Position numbers and translations under genes: made by a program | Shown here: piece after piece, positions 14,451 to 33,314 of the stretch | How positions within the stretch are numbered: position 1 is the first letter of the stretch | Layout of the letters: every line of letters begins with the position of its first letter | NCBI RefSeq assembly: GCF_003149045.1 | Contig: NZ_QGDU01000031.1 | Span: 1-41,442 of the forward strand | Source: Fibrobacter sp. UWR4 | Lineage (GTDB): Bacteria > Fibrobacterota > Fibrobacteria > Fibrobacterales > Fibrobacteraceae | DNA: 41,442 nucleotides | Reading direction: 5' to 3' | The notes under the pieces: model-generated | Seen by the model: only the letters and a program-made list of their open reading frames with translations | What the model was told of the DNA's origin: nothing | The model's database searches: none

Positions 14451-14537
14451 AGTGCTTAGTAAACAGTGGTTAGTAAACAGTAACAACTGACCACTGACCA
14501 CTAACCACTAACCACTAACCACTACCCACTAACCACT
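14451..14537. repeat. Inverted array of 7-bp repeats, no gene inside (AGTGGTT type)
   Basis: A left arm of four heptads (AGTGCTT AGTAAAC, then AGTGGTT AGTAAAC; 14451-14481) and a right arm of about seven complementary heptads (ACCACTA type; 14490-14537) flank an 8-nt centre. The array occupies almost all of the gltX to 14544 gap and leaves no Shine-Dalgarno for the next gene. The transcript could fold into a long hairpin. It has the same design as the arrays at 29618, 30294 and 30714 but a different heptad. Confidence 0.85.
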
Positions 14538-19825: not shown

Positions 19826-21157
19826 TTACGAACCGGCCTGCGGGGCTGCGTCCTGAGTTACAATTTGCGGGGCGGCGTCCTGAGTTACAATTTGCGGGGC
19901 TGCGTCCTGAGTTTCAATTTGCGGGGCTGCGTCTTGAATGTTGTTTACTTGAGGGGACGTTCGTGGTGCGGCGTCCTGCGGGTTAGTGCCCTGCGGGTTG
20001 GCGTTCAAATGCGCGGCGTCCTGCAGCGCTGTTTCCTGCGGGGCGATGCCTTGAAGGACGGGAAAATCCTGGCGATATTTTTTTAGCGGTTCCAGATGGA
20101 CTTGACCGCGGATGATTTCTTCTGCGGAATCGCTGCCGGAGGCAATGACATTTCCCAGCGGGTCGATAAGCATGGACGTACCGGCCAGCTGTTTCGTGGG
20201 GTTACATTCCGAGGGGGAGACTCCGTTGACGGCGGCGATATACACCTGATTCTCGATGGCTCGAGCCCGTAGGAGAGTTTCCCAGTGGGCCTTCCTGACT
20301 TTGGGCCAGGCAGCCTGAACCGTAATGAGGTTGGCGCCCAACTTGACTGCGTCGCGGAACAGCTCCGGAAAACGCAGGTCGTAACAGATGACGGAAGCGA
20401 TTTTCCAGTCGCCTATTTCGAATAAAGTAATAGAGTCGCCAGAGGCAAAACCGCGGTTTAATTCCGGGAAGAAGGGGTGGACCTTGTCGTAGGCGCTCAC
20501 GGCACCGTTTCCGCCAGGCACAAATACTGCGGATCGATTGCGCAGTGCGGGGGAGGTTTCATCCTGCGCTGCCTCGCCGTTCCTTTTGGCGGAAACTTTT
20601 GCAATCCCCGCGCCAAACACGATGTCGCCTGTTTCGTTTGCCAACTGTTGCAAAAACTCTGCAGTCCCGCCGACGTTCCCATCTGCATTCCGCTCGACGC
20701 CATCTGCAGCCAACCCGCAATCTTCTGCATTCCGCCCGATGTTACTAGCGGCCAGCCCGTTGCAATCACCAGCCGTCACTTGGCTATCAAAATCTTCTGC
20801 GTATTTTTCGGGCTGCTGCGGAATATACCCGACGTCAAACATTTCCGGCAGTACAATCAGGCGGGGACACTTGCATCCCTCAGCCGACCTGACGCCACTT
20901 GCAGTCATCCCGCAACAGCCAGCGTCCAGCCCGACATCACCAGCGTCCATCCCGCGACAACCAGCGTCCAATCTGCAGTCACCCTCAGCCAACCTGGTAT
21001 CGTCTGCGTCCAACCTGACGCCACTTTCTGCTTCCCCGCGACTATTCGCGTTCAGCTCGTAGGCCCCCGCGGTTTGTAGCAGGGTTTTGACCTTGGCGAA
21101 ATTGGCGGTCTTTTCGCTTAAAAGGGATTCCATTTGGACGAGAATGATGTCTAACAT
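19826..21157 (-). CDS. Carbon-nitrogen hydrolase (nitrilase/omega-amidase-like) with three repeat expansions
   Basis: 443 residues against about 260 for YafV/omega-amidase relatives. The catalytic triad is visible: Glu in VLPEMFDVGY, Lys in YDKVHPFF and Cys in SVICYDLRFPELFR. The extra length comes from repetitive inserts. A 7-residue-period block before the catalytic Glu includes DAGDVGLDAGCCGM. A second 7-residue-period block (GLAASNI, GRNAEDC, GLAADGV) follows the MFDVGY loop. A C-terminal tail has a 9-residue period (TQDAAPQIV). All three can be read as surface-loop or tail expansions, so the core may still fold. Substrate is unknown; omega-amidases act on alpha-ketoglutaramate. It leads a two-gene minus-strand unit. 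Confidence 0.8.
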   Translation of the reverse strand: MLDIILVQMESLLSEKTANFAKVKTLLQTAGAYELNANSRGEAESGVRLDADDTRLAEGDCRLDAGCRGMDAGDVGLDAGCCGMTASGVRSAEGCKCPRLIVLPEMFDVGYIPQQPEKYAEDFDSQVTAGDCNGLAASNIGRNAEDCGLAADGVERNADGNVGGTAEFLQQLANETGDIVFGAGIAKVSAKRNGEAAQDETSPALRNRSAVFVPGGNGAVSAYDKVHPFFPELNRGFASGDSITLFEIGDWKIASVICYDLRFPELFRDAVKLGANLITVQAAWPKVRKAHWETLLRARAIENQVYIAAVNGVSPSECNPTKQLAGTSMLIDPLGNVIASGSDSAEEIIRGQVHLEPLKKYRQDFPVLQGIAPQETALQDAAHLNANPQGTNPQDAAPRTSPQVNNIQDAAPQIETQDAAPQIVTQDAAPQIVTQDAAPQAGS

Positions 21158-26562: not shown

Positions 26563-28644
26563 ATGAAGAATACTCTTAAAACCGTAGTTGCCGGCTCCCT
26601 GATGGCGGCCGGCCTTGCATGTGCCCAGACGGGCCTCGGTGGCGGTTCTGAAGGTTTGCACCAGATGAATGCAAACACTTTGGGCCAGTGGGGCGTGACC
26701 TTTGGTGCAGGTGGCAACATTTCTTTCGATAGCTGGGCTTTGGCCAGCGGCGGCTATATTTACGACAAGACCGCCAAGGAAGCCATTTACCTGAACGAAT
26801 CCGCAATCTCCATCGATGCAAACGTCAATGCCGCCATCGGTCTTACCAACTGGTGGGACGTTGGTGTTGCTTTGCCCATTTACTTTGATATGGGTACCGA
26901 CAACAAGAACCGCATTGGCGATAACGGCATGACCGACGTTGCCATTGGCGACCTGGAAGCCTGGATGAAGTTTAACCTGGTGGGCCGTAACGAAGGTTTC
27001 TTTAGACTGGCCTTGATGGCCAACTTCTACGCACCTACCGGTTCCGAAGAAGCTGGCTTCCGCCCCCGTCATTCCTGGTACTTGAGCAATACGACCACTC
27101 CTTACACCTTGGGCGATTACGCTGCCGGTGGTAGCCTGATTTTCTCCTTCAATGGTCGTAAGGTTCATTGGAATACTCAAATTGGTTATGTGCAGCCCTT
27201 CAATACAGACGACTATTCCGGCTCTGTAATTTATAGCACTGCATTCAATTACCTGCCTGCTAAGTTCATTGACCTGTTCCTGGAATTCTCCGGCGAAGCT
27301 CATATTAACGACATGCGCGCTCCCATTGACCCCACGGTTGATCCTATGATCATTACCCCGGGTCTTCGCCTCCACCTGTCCGACAATATTGACCTGGCTC
27401 TGGGTGTAGATGTGGGTGCCCGTATCTTCAAGAACCTGGAAATGGATGCTGTCAAGGATCGTGAAGAAAAGGATGGCTTTGAAATCAATGTCAAGGATAA
27501 CAAGGGTACTCTTACCTATGGTTACTCCTCTTCTCCGCTGCTGGCTGCTACTGCTGCTGTTACCTGGAACTTTGGTGGCTACAACAACAAGGCCGAAGAA
27601 GAAAAGGCTCGCGTCAAGGAAATGATCGAAAAGCGTGCCCAGGAAAAGCTGGACTCCGCCATGGCATTGGTCAAGCCTGAAGTTCGCGTCGATACCGTTG
27701 CCAAGGTGGATACCATGGCTGTGGTGGATACCATTGCCAAGGTGGATACGGTCAAGACTATCGATACCGTGAAGACTGTAGATACCATTACCGTGAAGGA
27801 CCTGGTGGCAGACTCCCTGAACAAGGCCAAGATGGACTCTGTCAAGGCTGTGAACGATTCCCTGGCTAACCTCTCTGCTGATGCCGATGGCGATGGCGTG
27901 CCCAATATGGTGGACCGTTGCCCGGATACTCCGGCTGGCATTAAGGTGGGCGCCGATGGTTGCGAAGTGGATACCGATAACGATGGTGTCGTGGATTCCA
28001 AGGACCAGTGCCCTGCTTCTACTCCTGGCGCTCCGGTGGATGCCAACGGCTGCGAAATCGACGAAGACGGTGACGGCGTTGTGGATGTAAAGGACAAGTG
28101 CCCCGCAACCCTCAGCGAAGTGGAAGTGGATGCCGAAGGCTGCCCCACCAACAAGGACGAAGACCTGACCAAGCTCCAGGCCCAGATCAAGTTCACCAAG
28201 GGCAAGGCTAAGCTGTCCAAGGCTACCATGAAGGTGCTGGACAAGGTGGTCGCCCTCAAGATGAGCCGTAAGGACCTGCGTATCGAAGTCCAGGCCCATA
28301 CCGACGAAATGGGTGTGGATGCCGAAGACAATCAGGAACTGTCCGAAAAGCGTGCCAAGGCCATCATGGATTACATGGTCAAGAAGGGTGTTCCCTCCAA
28401 GCATGTCCGTGCCGTTGGCCTGGGCGATACCCAGCTGGTGGTACCTGTGAAGGCTCCCAAGAAGGGCAAGAAGTTCAAGGCTAACCCCAAGAACACCCGC
28501 GTAGTCCTTGCTCCCCATGTAAAGAAGCCTAAGGCTCAGCAGCCTGCAGCAGAAGCAGCCCCGGCTGCACAGCCCGCAGCCCCTGCCGCTGAAGCAGCAC
28601 CTGCCGCTCAGCCTGCTGCACCGGCACCTGCCGCTGCCAAGTAA
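26563..28644 (+). CDS. OmpA-family protein with thrombospondin type 3 repeats
   Basis: 693 residues. A signal peptide ends near GLACAQ. An N-terminal beta-barrel-like region runs to about residue 345. A coiled or extended spacer at about 370-425 is built from VDT-x-x-K-type repeats (VAKVDTMAVVDTIAKVDT). Three to four Ca2+-binding TSP3 repeats (DADGDGVPNMVDRCPDTP type, with paired Cys) span about 441-540. The OmpA C-terminal peptidoglycan-binding domain lies at about 541-655 (VQAHTDEMG, LSEKRAKAIMDYM, NTRVVL). The tail is Ala/Pro rich. It tethers the outer membrane to the wall. The position between sugar-nucleotide genes is unusual, but it has its own terminator at 28668. Confidence 0.92.
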   Translation: MKNTLKTVVAGSLMAAGLACAQTGLGGGSEGLHQMNANTLGQWGVTFGAGGNISFDSWALASGGYIYDKTAKEAIYLNESAISIDANVNAAIGLTNWWDVGVALPIYFDMGTDNKNRIGDNGMTDVAIGDLEAWMKFNLVGRNEGFFRLALMANFYAPTGSEEAGFRPRHSWYLSNTTTPYTLGDYAAGGSLIFSFNGRKVHWNTQIGYVQPFNTDDYSGSVIYSTAFNYLPAKFIDLFLEFSGEAHINDMRAPIDPTVDPMIITPGLRLHLSDNIDLALGVDVGARIFKNLEMDAVKDREEKDGFEINVKDNKGTLTYGYSSSPLLAATAAVTWNFGGYNNKAEEEKARVKEMIEKRAQEKLDSAMALVKPEVRVDTVAKVDTMAVVDTIAKVDTVKTIDTVKTVDTITVKDLVADSLNKAKMDSVKAVNDSLANLSADADGDGVPNMVDRCPDTPAGIKVGADGCEVDTDNDGVVDSKDQCPASTPGAPVDANGCEIDEDGDGVVDVKDKCPATLSEVEVDAEGCPTNKDEDLTKLQAQIKFTKGKAKLSKATMKVLDKVVALKMSRKDLRIEVQAHTDEMGVDAEDNQELSEKRAKAIMDYMVKKGVPSKHVRAVGLGDTQLVVPVKAPKKGKKFKANPKNTRVVLAPHVKKPKAQQPAAEAAPAAQPAAPAAEAAPAAQPAAPAPAAAK

Positions 28645-30367: not shown

Positions 30368-30733
30368 ATGCCAGTAAAGAACTTCAAGGAATTGATTGTT
30401 TGGCAGAAGGCCATTCAGTTGGTTGTTAGTGTTTATGACCTTGTAAAAGAGTTCCCTAAGAGCGAAATGTTTGCTCTGTCTGATCAGATGAGGCGTGCTG
30501 TAGTTTCTATACCCTCAAACATTGCAGAAGGTTATGAACGAAATTCGGTGAAAGAATACATTCATTTTTTAACCATCGCTCGTGGATCAAAAGCCGAAAT
30601 TGAAACACAGTTGCATATCTGCGAAGTATTAGAATTTGGAAATAAAGAAAAAGTAAAGGAGATTCAGTCTTTGTGTCTAGAAATTGGAAAAATGCTAAAT
30701 AGAATGATTACTTCCCTAACCCCTAGACCCTAG
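30368..30733 (+). CDS. Four-helix bundle protein (S23/IVP family, TIGR02436-like)
   Basis: 121 residues. Family marks are the N-terminal FKELIVWQKAIQLVVSVYDL, then FALSDQMRRAVVSIPSNIAEGYERN and FLTIARGSKAEIETQLHICE. These are the conserved surface of the small all-helical family first known from 23S rRNA intervening sequences and related to the Avd accessory protein of diversity-generating retroelements. Its cellular role is unknown. It sits between rfbC and rfbB, enclosed by 7-bp repeat arrays in opposite orientation. Its last five residues (LTPRP) and stop are encoded by the right array. No reverse transcriptase or variable repeat is nearby, so an Avd role is not supported. Confidence 0.92.
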   Translation: MPVKNFKELIVWQKAIQLVVSVYDLVKEFPKSEMFALSDQMRRAVVSIPSNIAEGYERNSVKEYIHFLTIARGSKAEIETQLHICEVLEFGNKEKVKEIQSLCLEIGKMLNRMITSLTPRP

Positions 30734-31978: not shown

Positions 31979-32098
31979 ACAAAAAAAATCATTTTTTCGT
32001 GTACAAATCGGGTGAAAAAAACGTGTATATATATGGTTAGGTGAAAACATGCCTAGCCCCGCCTGGCAATGCAGCCGGCGGCACGAAAAAATATTTCT

Positions 32099-33106
32099 AT
32101 GGAACTGCAATCAATTTTCACCGACTGGCAGGCGTTTTTCTCCAACTACAAAATTCTTTCACAGGACCTCCCCGAAAATGAGGTTCCGGAGCTTTTCCGC
32201 AAGAATGTCTTCATGGACGCAAGGTTTGACATCTCGTTCAAGTGGCTATTTGCCGATGTGGCGATCTTGCAGGATTTCTTGAACACAATCTTGAGGCTTG
32301 AAGGCGATGCGAAAATCAAGGCGCTGCGGCTTCGCCAAACGGATCTGAGCCTCATCCAGGCTTCAGATGACCTTGTGCGCATCGACATTCATGCGCAAAA
32401 TGGTCGCGACGAGTGGTTTGACATTGAGATGCAGCGCTTTAGCCACACAGGCATCAAGGACCGTGCAGTGCTTTACGGGGCTGTGGTTGCCGCCGAGGCG
32501 CACCGTGAGGCGTTGCTTGCCTACCGCAAGGACTTCGCGAAGATCAGCACCGCAGCGCGCTACCATGTGCCTAAAGTGATCAGCCTCTGGCTCATGAACG
32601 AGGCGGTTGACGCAAGCTACGGCTACCGCGAGGAATGGGCCATGTATTGCAAAAGTAAAGTCGGTACCCCTGGGGTATTGCCTGAGAGCGATGTTTTAAG
32701 TTATATTTGGATTGACTTGCCGAAGTACAAGAAGGAACACGGCCTTTCCGCTGAGGAACGCGAGTGGCTCGATCTTCTTTGCAACAGCAAGGACAAGGAC
32801 GACGTCCCGGAAACACAGAACGAGGCAATCCTTGCCGCATACGACAGGCTTCGTGTGCGCCGCACCCCGAAAGAAATTCTTGCCAAGATGGAGGATCGCA
32901 TGGTAACACAATTCGACATTGACTGCTGCATTGACGACGCCCTCCGCAAGGGCCGCGAGGAAGGTCGCGAGGAAGGACGCGAAGAAGGTCGCGAGGAAGG
33001 TCGTGAGGAAGGACGCGAAGAAGAACGCCGAAGGTCCGAAGCGGAAATCGCCAAGCTGCAGGCGGAAATCGCTTCGTTGAAAAAGGCTCTCGCAAAAAAG
33101 AAGTAG
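32099..33106 (+). CDS. Rpn-family recombination-promoting nuclease/putative transposase
   Basis: 335 residues from ATG 32099 (ATG 32069 is also in frame; neither has a clear ribosome-binding site). The N-terminal PD-(D/E)XK core shows ARFDISFKWLFAD, LVRIDIHAQ and DEWFDIEMQRF (D...ExQ). The C-terminal third is helical, with six tandem GREE units (12-bp DNA repeats, about 32948-33020) and a coiled coil (EAEIAKLQAEIASLKKAL). Rpn proteins are nucleases linked to recombination and phage defence. Published RpnL proteins are inhibited by RpnS, their own C-terminal part made from an internal start. A matching internal GGAGG-ATG is present at 32890-32902, and the 3' end is duplicated downstream. A TATATATATGG stretch (about 32025-32035) may be the promoter. 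Confidence 0.85.
   Translation: MELQSIFTDWQAFFSNYKILSQDLPENEVPELFRKNVFMDARFDISFKWLFADVAILQDFLNTILRLEGDAKIKALRLRQTDLSLIQASDDLVRIDIHAQNGRDEWFDIEMQRFSHTGIKDRAVLYGAVVAAEAHREALLAYRKDFAKISTAARYHVPKVISLWLMNEAVDASYGYREEWAMYCKSKVGTPGVLPESDVLSYIWIDLPKYKKEHGLSAEEREWLDLLCNSKDKDDVPETQNEAILAAYDRLRVRRTPKEILAKMEDRMVTQFDIDCCIDDALRKGREEGREEGREEGREEGREEGREEERRRSEAEIAKLQAEIASLKKALAKKK
32900..33106 (+). other. Possible internal translation product (RpnS-like) of the Rpn gene
   Basis: Inside the Rpn reading frame GGAGG (32890-32894) lies 5 bases before ATG 32900. This is a better initiation site than either start of the full gene. The product would be 68 residues: VTQFDIDCCIDDALRKG followed by the GREE repeats and coiled coil, with no nuclease core. 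It corresponds in position to RpnS antitoxins. Whether it is made is inference. Confidence 0.45.
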
Positions 33107-33137
33107 CCCTGAAATTCTTGCCAAGATGGAGGATCGC

Positions 33138-33287
33138 ATGGTAACACAATTCGACATTGACTGCTGCATTGACGACGCCCTCCGCAAGGGTCGCGAGGAA
33201 GAACGCCGAAGGTCCGAAGCGGAAATCGCCAAGCTGCAGGCGGAAATAGCCGCCCTCAAGGCGCAGCTGGCAGCACTGCAGAAATAG
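33138..33287 (+). CDS. Stand-alone duplicate of the Rpn C-terminus (RpnS-like small ORF)
   Basis: Positions 33112-33287 repeat the 3' end of the Rpn gene from the EILAKMEDRM codons (about 32877 onward), nearly base for base. The duplicate lacks five of the six GREE units and has a different last ten residues (ALKAQLAALQK instead of SLKKALAKKK). The internal GGAGG (33128-33132) and ATG (33138) are preserved, so a 49-residue protein can be made independently. It starts right after the Rpn stop and ends just before a strong terminator, so the two share a transcript. It is either a recombination scar or a dedicated antitoxin copy. Confidence 0.5.
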   Translation: MVTQFDIDCCIDDALRKGREEERRRSEAEIAKLQAEIAALKAQLAALQK

Positions 33288-33291
33288 ACTC

Positions 33292-33314
33292 AAGGCCCTC
33301 GCGGGCCTTTTTTT
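33292..33314 (+). terminator. Intrinsic terminator after the Rpn unit
   Basis: AAGGCCC (33292-33298), TCGC loop, GGGCCTT (33303-33309) and a seven-T run. It overlaps the 5' flank of the nucleotidyltransferase-like gene, which starts 17 bp later. Confidence 0.92.

Follow-up and report, generated by a model that had tools for sequence, protein, structure and literature searches.

An Rpn-Type Nuclease Gene of Fibrobacter sp. UWR4 Trailed by a Mosaic Copy of Its Putative Antitoxin-Coding End

A locus of Fibrobacter sp. UWR4 is probably an Rpn-type toxin-antitoxin gene with a trailing rpnS copy that is both a by-product of and a substrate for turnover of the antitoxin tail. It lies in a window of 41,442 nt, the whole stretch of DNA that was analysed. 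In the Rpn family the nuclease is toxic and defends against phages, and an internal product of the same gene binds and blocks the nuclease. The product of the gene described here would be a PD-(D/E)XK-type nuclease, and initiation within the gene would yield the C-terminus on its own as an inhibitor. The rpnS-coding end of the gene would have been duplicated behind the stop codon, after which recombination with the tail of a foreign rpn gene would have exchanged one of the two tails. New here are the mosaic tail, the recurrence of the arrangement in ~5% of Fibrobacter rpn genes and a genus-wide exchange of tails at tetrapeptide repeats. Also new are the change of tail at the first repeat in an orthologue and an E. 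coli one-copy rpnE that carries the tail of the downstream copy.

The rpnL-like gene (32099 to 33106, plus strand) encodes 335 amino acids and is, judging from its sequence, a PDDEXK_2 (Rpn-type) nuclease. Its Rpn identity is supported. In profile searches the product matched PF12784 (E=2.5e-23) above the cut-off of that model, and the Rpn model TIGR01784 gave 42.4 bits, which is below its cut-off of 52.1. The predicted active-site residues D96 (32384-32386), E110 (32426-32428), and Q112 (32432-32434), all on the plus strand, did not vary in an alignment of 12 relatives from the genus Fibrobacter that share 26-46% identity. The open reading frame, with its stop at 33106, has two candidate starts, 32069 and 32099. 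The second is the most likely because the orthologue L175, from Fibrobacter sp. UBA1765 (DCGZ01000139.1), has only the frame beginning MELQ open. Homology with L175 begins at 32013 despite a different genomic context, which suggests that a 5' leader or promoter region (32013 to 32098, plus strand) moves together with the gene. PADLOC defence-system models did not match the window locus, and no relative was found among viral contigs or, by sequence search, in the PDB. An AlphaFold model built from 4 sequences (pLDDT 37.8) was too poor for use. The heptad pattern in the RpnS tail suggests one long coiled coil. Elsewhere in the window, 30368-30733 encodes a 23S rRNA-intervening-sequence four-helix protein (PF05635, 1.9e-40) surrounded by nucleotide-sugar genes. 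A tandem array with a 27-bp unit (3.7 copies at 94%) occupies 19839-19937, and further short tandem arrays lie at 14474-14537 and 27691-27786.

The internal start of the window rpnL looks real on the basis of its sequence context and its conservation. A Shine-Dalgarno (SD) sequence, GGAGG (32890 to 32894, plus strand), is separated by a 5-nt spacer from the ATG of an rpnS-like frame (copy 1; 32900 to 33106, plus strand), which encodes 68 amino acids with the tail ...AEIASLKKALAKKK. The ATG at 32900, Met268 of the nuclease, is among the 16 columns that do not vary across the 12 aligned sequences, and SDs are enriched at the same position in the family. Among 141 non-redundant rpn genes of the genus Fibrobacter, an SD precedes 25-41% of the methionines located 45-104 amino acids from the C-terminal end, as opposed to 2-12% in most of the gene. 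An SD-preceded start falls within the last 40-105 amino acids of 87 of 137 genes, whereas 40 were expected and 53 was the maximum in 100 synonymous reshuffles. Under the same synonymous null, 5-nt SDs in the C-terminal part numbered 40 against 9.2 expected, and SD-starts in the control region numbered 27 against 18.6. Because Met268 is invariant and SDs are enriched over the synonymous null, there is good support for selection on the internal start. Together with the PF12784 match, these observations uphold the initial annotation, which had proposed an Rpn gene with an internal GGAGG-ATG. The pattern of the 16S 3' anti-SD was absent from the window assembly, present in 1 of 41 draft genomes, and uninformative. 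Repeat analysis placed six 12-nt units coding for GREE at 32951 to 33022 (plus strand). They begin at RpnS residue 18; in the Rpn family, 4-aa repeats are expected 8-20 residues after the RpnS methionine. Their number is variable, as in the Rpn family, with six in copy 1, one in copy 2, and one in L175.

The duplicated C-terminal segment (33111 to 33250, plus strand) begins 4 nt after the rpnL stop and repeats the sequence from 32873 onward. Two blocks of direct repeat, both far beyond chance, make up this duplication: 32873-32968 and 33111-33206 are 97% identical over 96 nt, and 33011-33072 and 33189-33250 are 95% identical over 62 nt. The initial 91 nt of the copies contain a single mismatch. 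Copy 2 possesses its own GGAGG (33128 to 33132, plus strand) and a stand-alone rpnS-like frame (33138 to 33287, plus strand) of 49 amino acids, with one GREE and the tail ...AEIAALKAQLAALQK; an upstream in-frame ATG is present at 33126. The initial annotation had therefore correctly described a C-terminus duplicated right after the stop with its own GGAGG-ATG, and its coordinates and lengths (68 and 49 amino acids) were accurate. It had also described a shorter GREE array and a different end. The array is indeed shorter by 20 amino acids and the last ~14 codons differ, but tail 2 has not simply drifted, and the ends are mosaic. Near-identity breaks off sharply at 33072/33250, and the final ~45 nt are strongly divergent, most synonymous sites included. 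Because identity ends so abruptly and the divergence extends even to most synonymous sites, the tail of copy 2 does not appear to be merely a drifted copy. The divergence of ~45 nt beside near-identical blocks thus indicates that one tail was replaced, and recent duplication alone would be insufficient.

A hairpin and T run resembling an intrinsic terminator (33292 to 33309, plus strand) is found after copy 2 only, and no terminator was found between the copies. DNA similar to tail 2 with its stop and terminator (33239 to 33309, plus strand) occurs in rpn genes with other N-domains. The tail 2 region shares 74-86% DNA identity over 46-78 nt with the 3' ends of such genes in other species, including 78-86% over 59-76 nt with L130, L132, L129, L128, and L131 and 74-80% with L016. 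Tail 2 has no further copy in the window genome outside the window, and a source for the last ~45 nt of tail 1 was not found. Read-through of the rpnL stop into copy 2 is excluded since copy 2 lies in another frame (+1).

The orthologue L175 displays a comparable break. It is 88% identical to the window DNA over 951 bp, from 86 bp before the start to the first GREE, and from the first GREE on it carries an unrelated, longer tail. The single-GREE state is common to L175 and copy 2 of the window. L175 has other neighbours than the window gene and no downstream copy. The window copies resemble each other more closely than either resembles L175, so the duplication is younger than the split from this orthologue.

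Orphan C-termini are not peculiar to the window. In 80 genomes (G000-G079), 295 distinct full-length rpn genes were identified, 287 of which had at least 147 nt downstream, and 274 of those were fetched irrespective of the downstream region. An orphan Rpn C-terminus lies within 600 nt downstream of 13 of these 274 unselected genes, or ~5% (L273, L047, L317, L168, L171, L247, L078, L045, L183, L192, L167, L274, and L026); L167 and L274 apparently represent the same arrangement in two species. The window, L116, L117, L122, and L109 were added via other routes or criteria, for a total of 18 loci. The count excludes L297 (a 14-aa match), the split or broken genes L052, L133, and L299, and matches falling inside the following full gene. 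In 11 of the 18 loci the homology begins 0-14 nt after the stop, near and upstream of the RpnS start; rougher junction positions gave 12 of 17 within 25 nt, and the binomial figure from these is not relied on. Orphan frames are open to their natural end wherever the locus contains that end, and an SD-start is kept in 10 of 15 orphans, with the window scored by inspection. At all surveyed loci the orphan is unlike the neighbour's own end, differing in tail, repeat number, or subfamily. The Rpn subfamily itself differs in L171, L078, L047, and L122. A long non-cognate remnant is present at L026, and some other loci are split genes. Insertion of one rpn gene into another was rejected as an origin because loci with upstream flank have no N-terminal fragments upstream of rpnL.

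Several related arrangements were encountered in this survey. L315 (1712-2000, plus strand) and L228 (reverse strand, ~2163-2440 of the reverse complement) are natural L/S splits, counted apart from the orphans: in both, the nuclease has lost its own C-terminus, and the RpnS-like part is encoded downstream in a frame of its own. L183 (reverse strand, 2382-2700 of the reverse complement) contains a clean tandem duplication of the C-terminus, stop, and terminator. Unlike the window, its duplicate has the same tail, with one extra heptad (EKDNALA). The number of rpn (PF12784) matches per genome ranged from 1 to 26 over G000-G079, and the window genome has 11.

Comparison with relatives shows that rpn ends have been repeatedly swapped between genes. 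Tail and 3' DNA are common to genes with unrelated N-domains in the pairs L045/L083 (245 nt at 89%), L143/L145 (238 nt at 91%, starting within the repeats), and L019/L020 (208 nt at 92%). Conversely, in 22 independent pairs, N-parts that are 85-99.8% identical diverge into different tails. A Gly-tetrad block, which makes up ~9% of the coding length, is present in 13 of the 22 pairs, and the breakpoint lies inside it in 12 of 13, a placement that rapid divergence of the tails and the ends of the alignments may overstate. Since hypervariability could blur the breakpoints in this way, the shared-tail pairs are the stronger evidence. Within one genome, L116 and L146 are 99.8% identical over 947 nt before their repeats and tails differ, and the orphan behind L116 is a third tail variant. 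Two adjoining rpn genes in L070 (1-600 and 1393-2337) have different N-parts and nearly the same tail (DAE-LLRDGDPVDRVARVLKLPLETVQAIADRIAKPA type), which suggests local tail homogenisation. In the open-access literature, to which the search was confined, no paper on Rpn tail shuffling was found; subscription papers were outside its scope.

A stand-alone rpnS copy after rpnL has already been published for rpnE/ypaA and rpnC of E. coli (Zhong et al. 2023, PMC10327210), a precedent that the initial annotation had not taken into account, and the window locus therefore adds to a known arrangement. As in these systems, a full-length Rpn with an internal RpnS start is followed directly after the stop by a stand-alone RpnS, and the copies differ in repeat number (PMC10327210). 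As in the rpnE-ypaA type, the window copy has its own GGAGG-ATG, is related to its neighbour (97%/95%), and lies close behind it, with a 4-nt gap; the rpnE/ypaA repeat of strain MG1655 starts right at the rpnE stop. MG1655 also has a hairpin-like 3' end after the second copy only. In contrast, the N-domain is PDDEXK_2 in the window and Transposase_31 in E. coli Rpn, the heptad pattern of the window tail suggests a coiled coil rather than the three-helix bundle of E. coli RpnS, and, unlike the E. coli repeats, GREE has no hydrophobic residue.

The two-copy rpnE/ypaA junction is mostly present in at least 3,096 of 5,426 E. coli genomes, i.e., over half. Among the loci compared (L332-L345 and L114), all nine with two copies have tail A at position 1, tail B at position 2, and unequal repeats, and in all six with one copy the full-length protein carries tail B. 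In strain EC20, rpnE matches K-12 copy 1 exactly over 112 nt and copy 2 exactly over the 104 nt that lead to the end of tail B, with 40 nt shared by both copies; its sequence is exactly what a single crossover between the two K-12 copies would give. The one-copy/two-copy polymorphism may also have arisen in the opposite direction, with tail B ancestral and tail A inserted in front of it. Zhong et al. reported fusion of the same sort and an independent origin of downstream copies (PMC10327210).

The initial annotation had offered two readings of copy 2, an evolving free antitoxin and a donor for C-terminus switching. That copy 2 serves this nuclease as an additional antitoxin gene, retained to raise the inhibitor dose independently of the toxin, seems quite unlikely. 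It does have its own SD-ATG and the same first helix, the lack of a terminator between the copies makes a shared transcript likely, SD-starts persist in most scored orphans, and the downstream RpnE small protein is synthesised in E. coli (PMC10327210). However, repeat number and tail are mismatched at the window and all other loci examined, and some orphans come from a subfamily other than their neighbour's. In RpnC, the sole family tested, one extra 4-aa repeat in one partner abolished neutralisation (PMC10327210). Because one repeat broke the match there, and the window copies differ by five repeats and the tail, copy 2 is expected to be a poor inhibitor of the present full-length protein, and it is probably not the cognate antitoxin of the window nuclease. 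The free-antitoxin reading is weakened accordingly. It is also unlikely, if less so, that copy 2 is a neutral, functionless relic left by a recent tandem duplication or deletion. The 99% identity of the 5' block and the closer relation of the copies to each other than to L175 do point to a recent event, and remnants or split genes exist at some loci. Against this, orphans repeatedly begin within 14 nt of the stop and close upstream of the RpnS start, their frames stay open, and the arrangement recurs in more than half of E. coli genomes. An assembly artefact joining two strain alleles is highly improbable: the window genome is a draft of 93 contigs, but its listed contamination is 0.12, and this layout is also seen in numerous other genomes and in complete E. 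coli chromosomes.

The donor reading gains support, as ends switch at the repeats in Fibrobacter relatives and in E. coli the full-length protein occurs with the downstream copy's tail attached, in one case as an exact hybrid. Copy 2 at the window locus would probably share a transcript with rpnL and be translated starting at its own GGAGG-ATG. A single crossover in the 96-nt repeats would remove 238 bp and attach tail 2, with one or a few GREE units, in frame to the nuclease; when the sequences were joined computationally through this repeat, tail 2 did read in frame. No sister strain shows the 238-bp deletion form. Given the poor match and the in-frame crossover, copy 2 is therefore taken to have arisen from C-terminal turnover and to provide a substrate for it. 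Its retention may be selected, as a switch donor or for protection from a former or foreign nuclease, or may be neutral. For the window locus, we infer translation, toxicity, lack of cross-neutralisation, and switching in the host.

A broader proposal is tentative and on balance doubtful. Rpn loci in distant phyla could act as antitoxin-specificity switches, each storing an alternative rpnS cassette exactly after the rpnL stop, with the 12-bp GREE-type repeats serving as in-frame recombination joints. Whole C-termini with stop and terminator would be exchanged with this stored cassette as well as among unrelated rpn families. In orphan cdiA-CT/cdiI and rhs-CT modules, too, C-terminal modules lie displaced after the main gene, and a deletion can fuse such an orphan to the full-length gene (PMC3150448). 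In cdiA and rhs it is the toxin domain that is exchanged, and immunity is encoded by a gene of its own, whereas in the window Rpn the exchanged end would be the antitoxin itself, so that the likeness is one of analogy and not of membership. If tails swap as cassettes, toxin and antitoxin specificity would change together because both are read from the same DNA. Cassette swapping, if true, would help to explain the high variability of Rpn C-termini, and switching would be detectable by simple PCR. It raises an antitoxin analogue of the orphan CdiA/Rhs C-termini that is testable with E. coli rpnE/ypaA.
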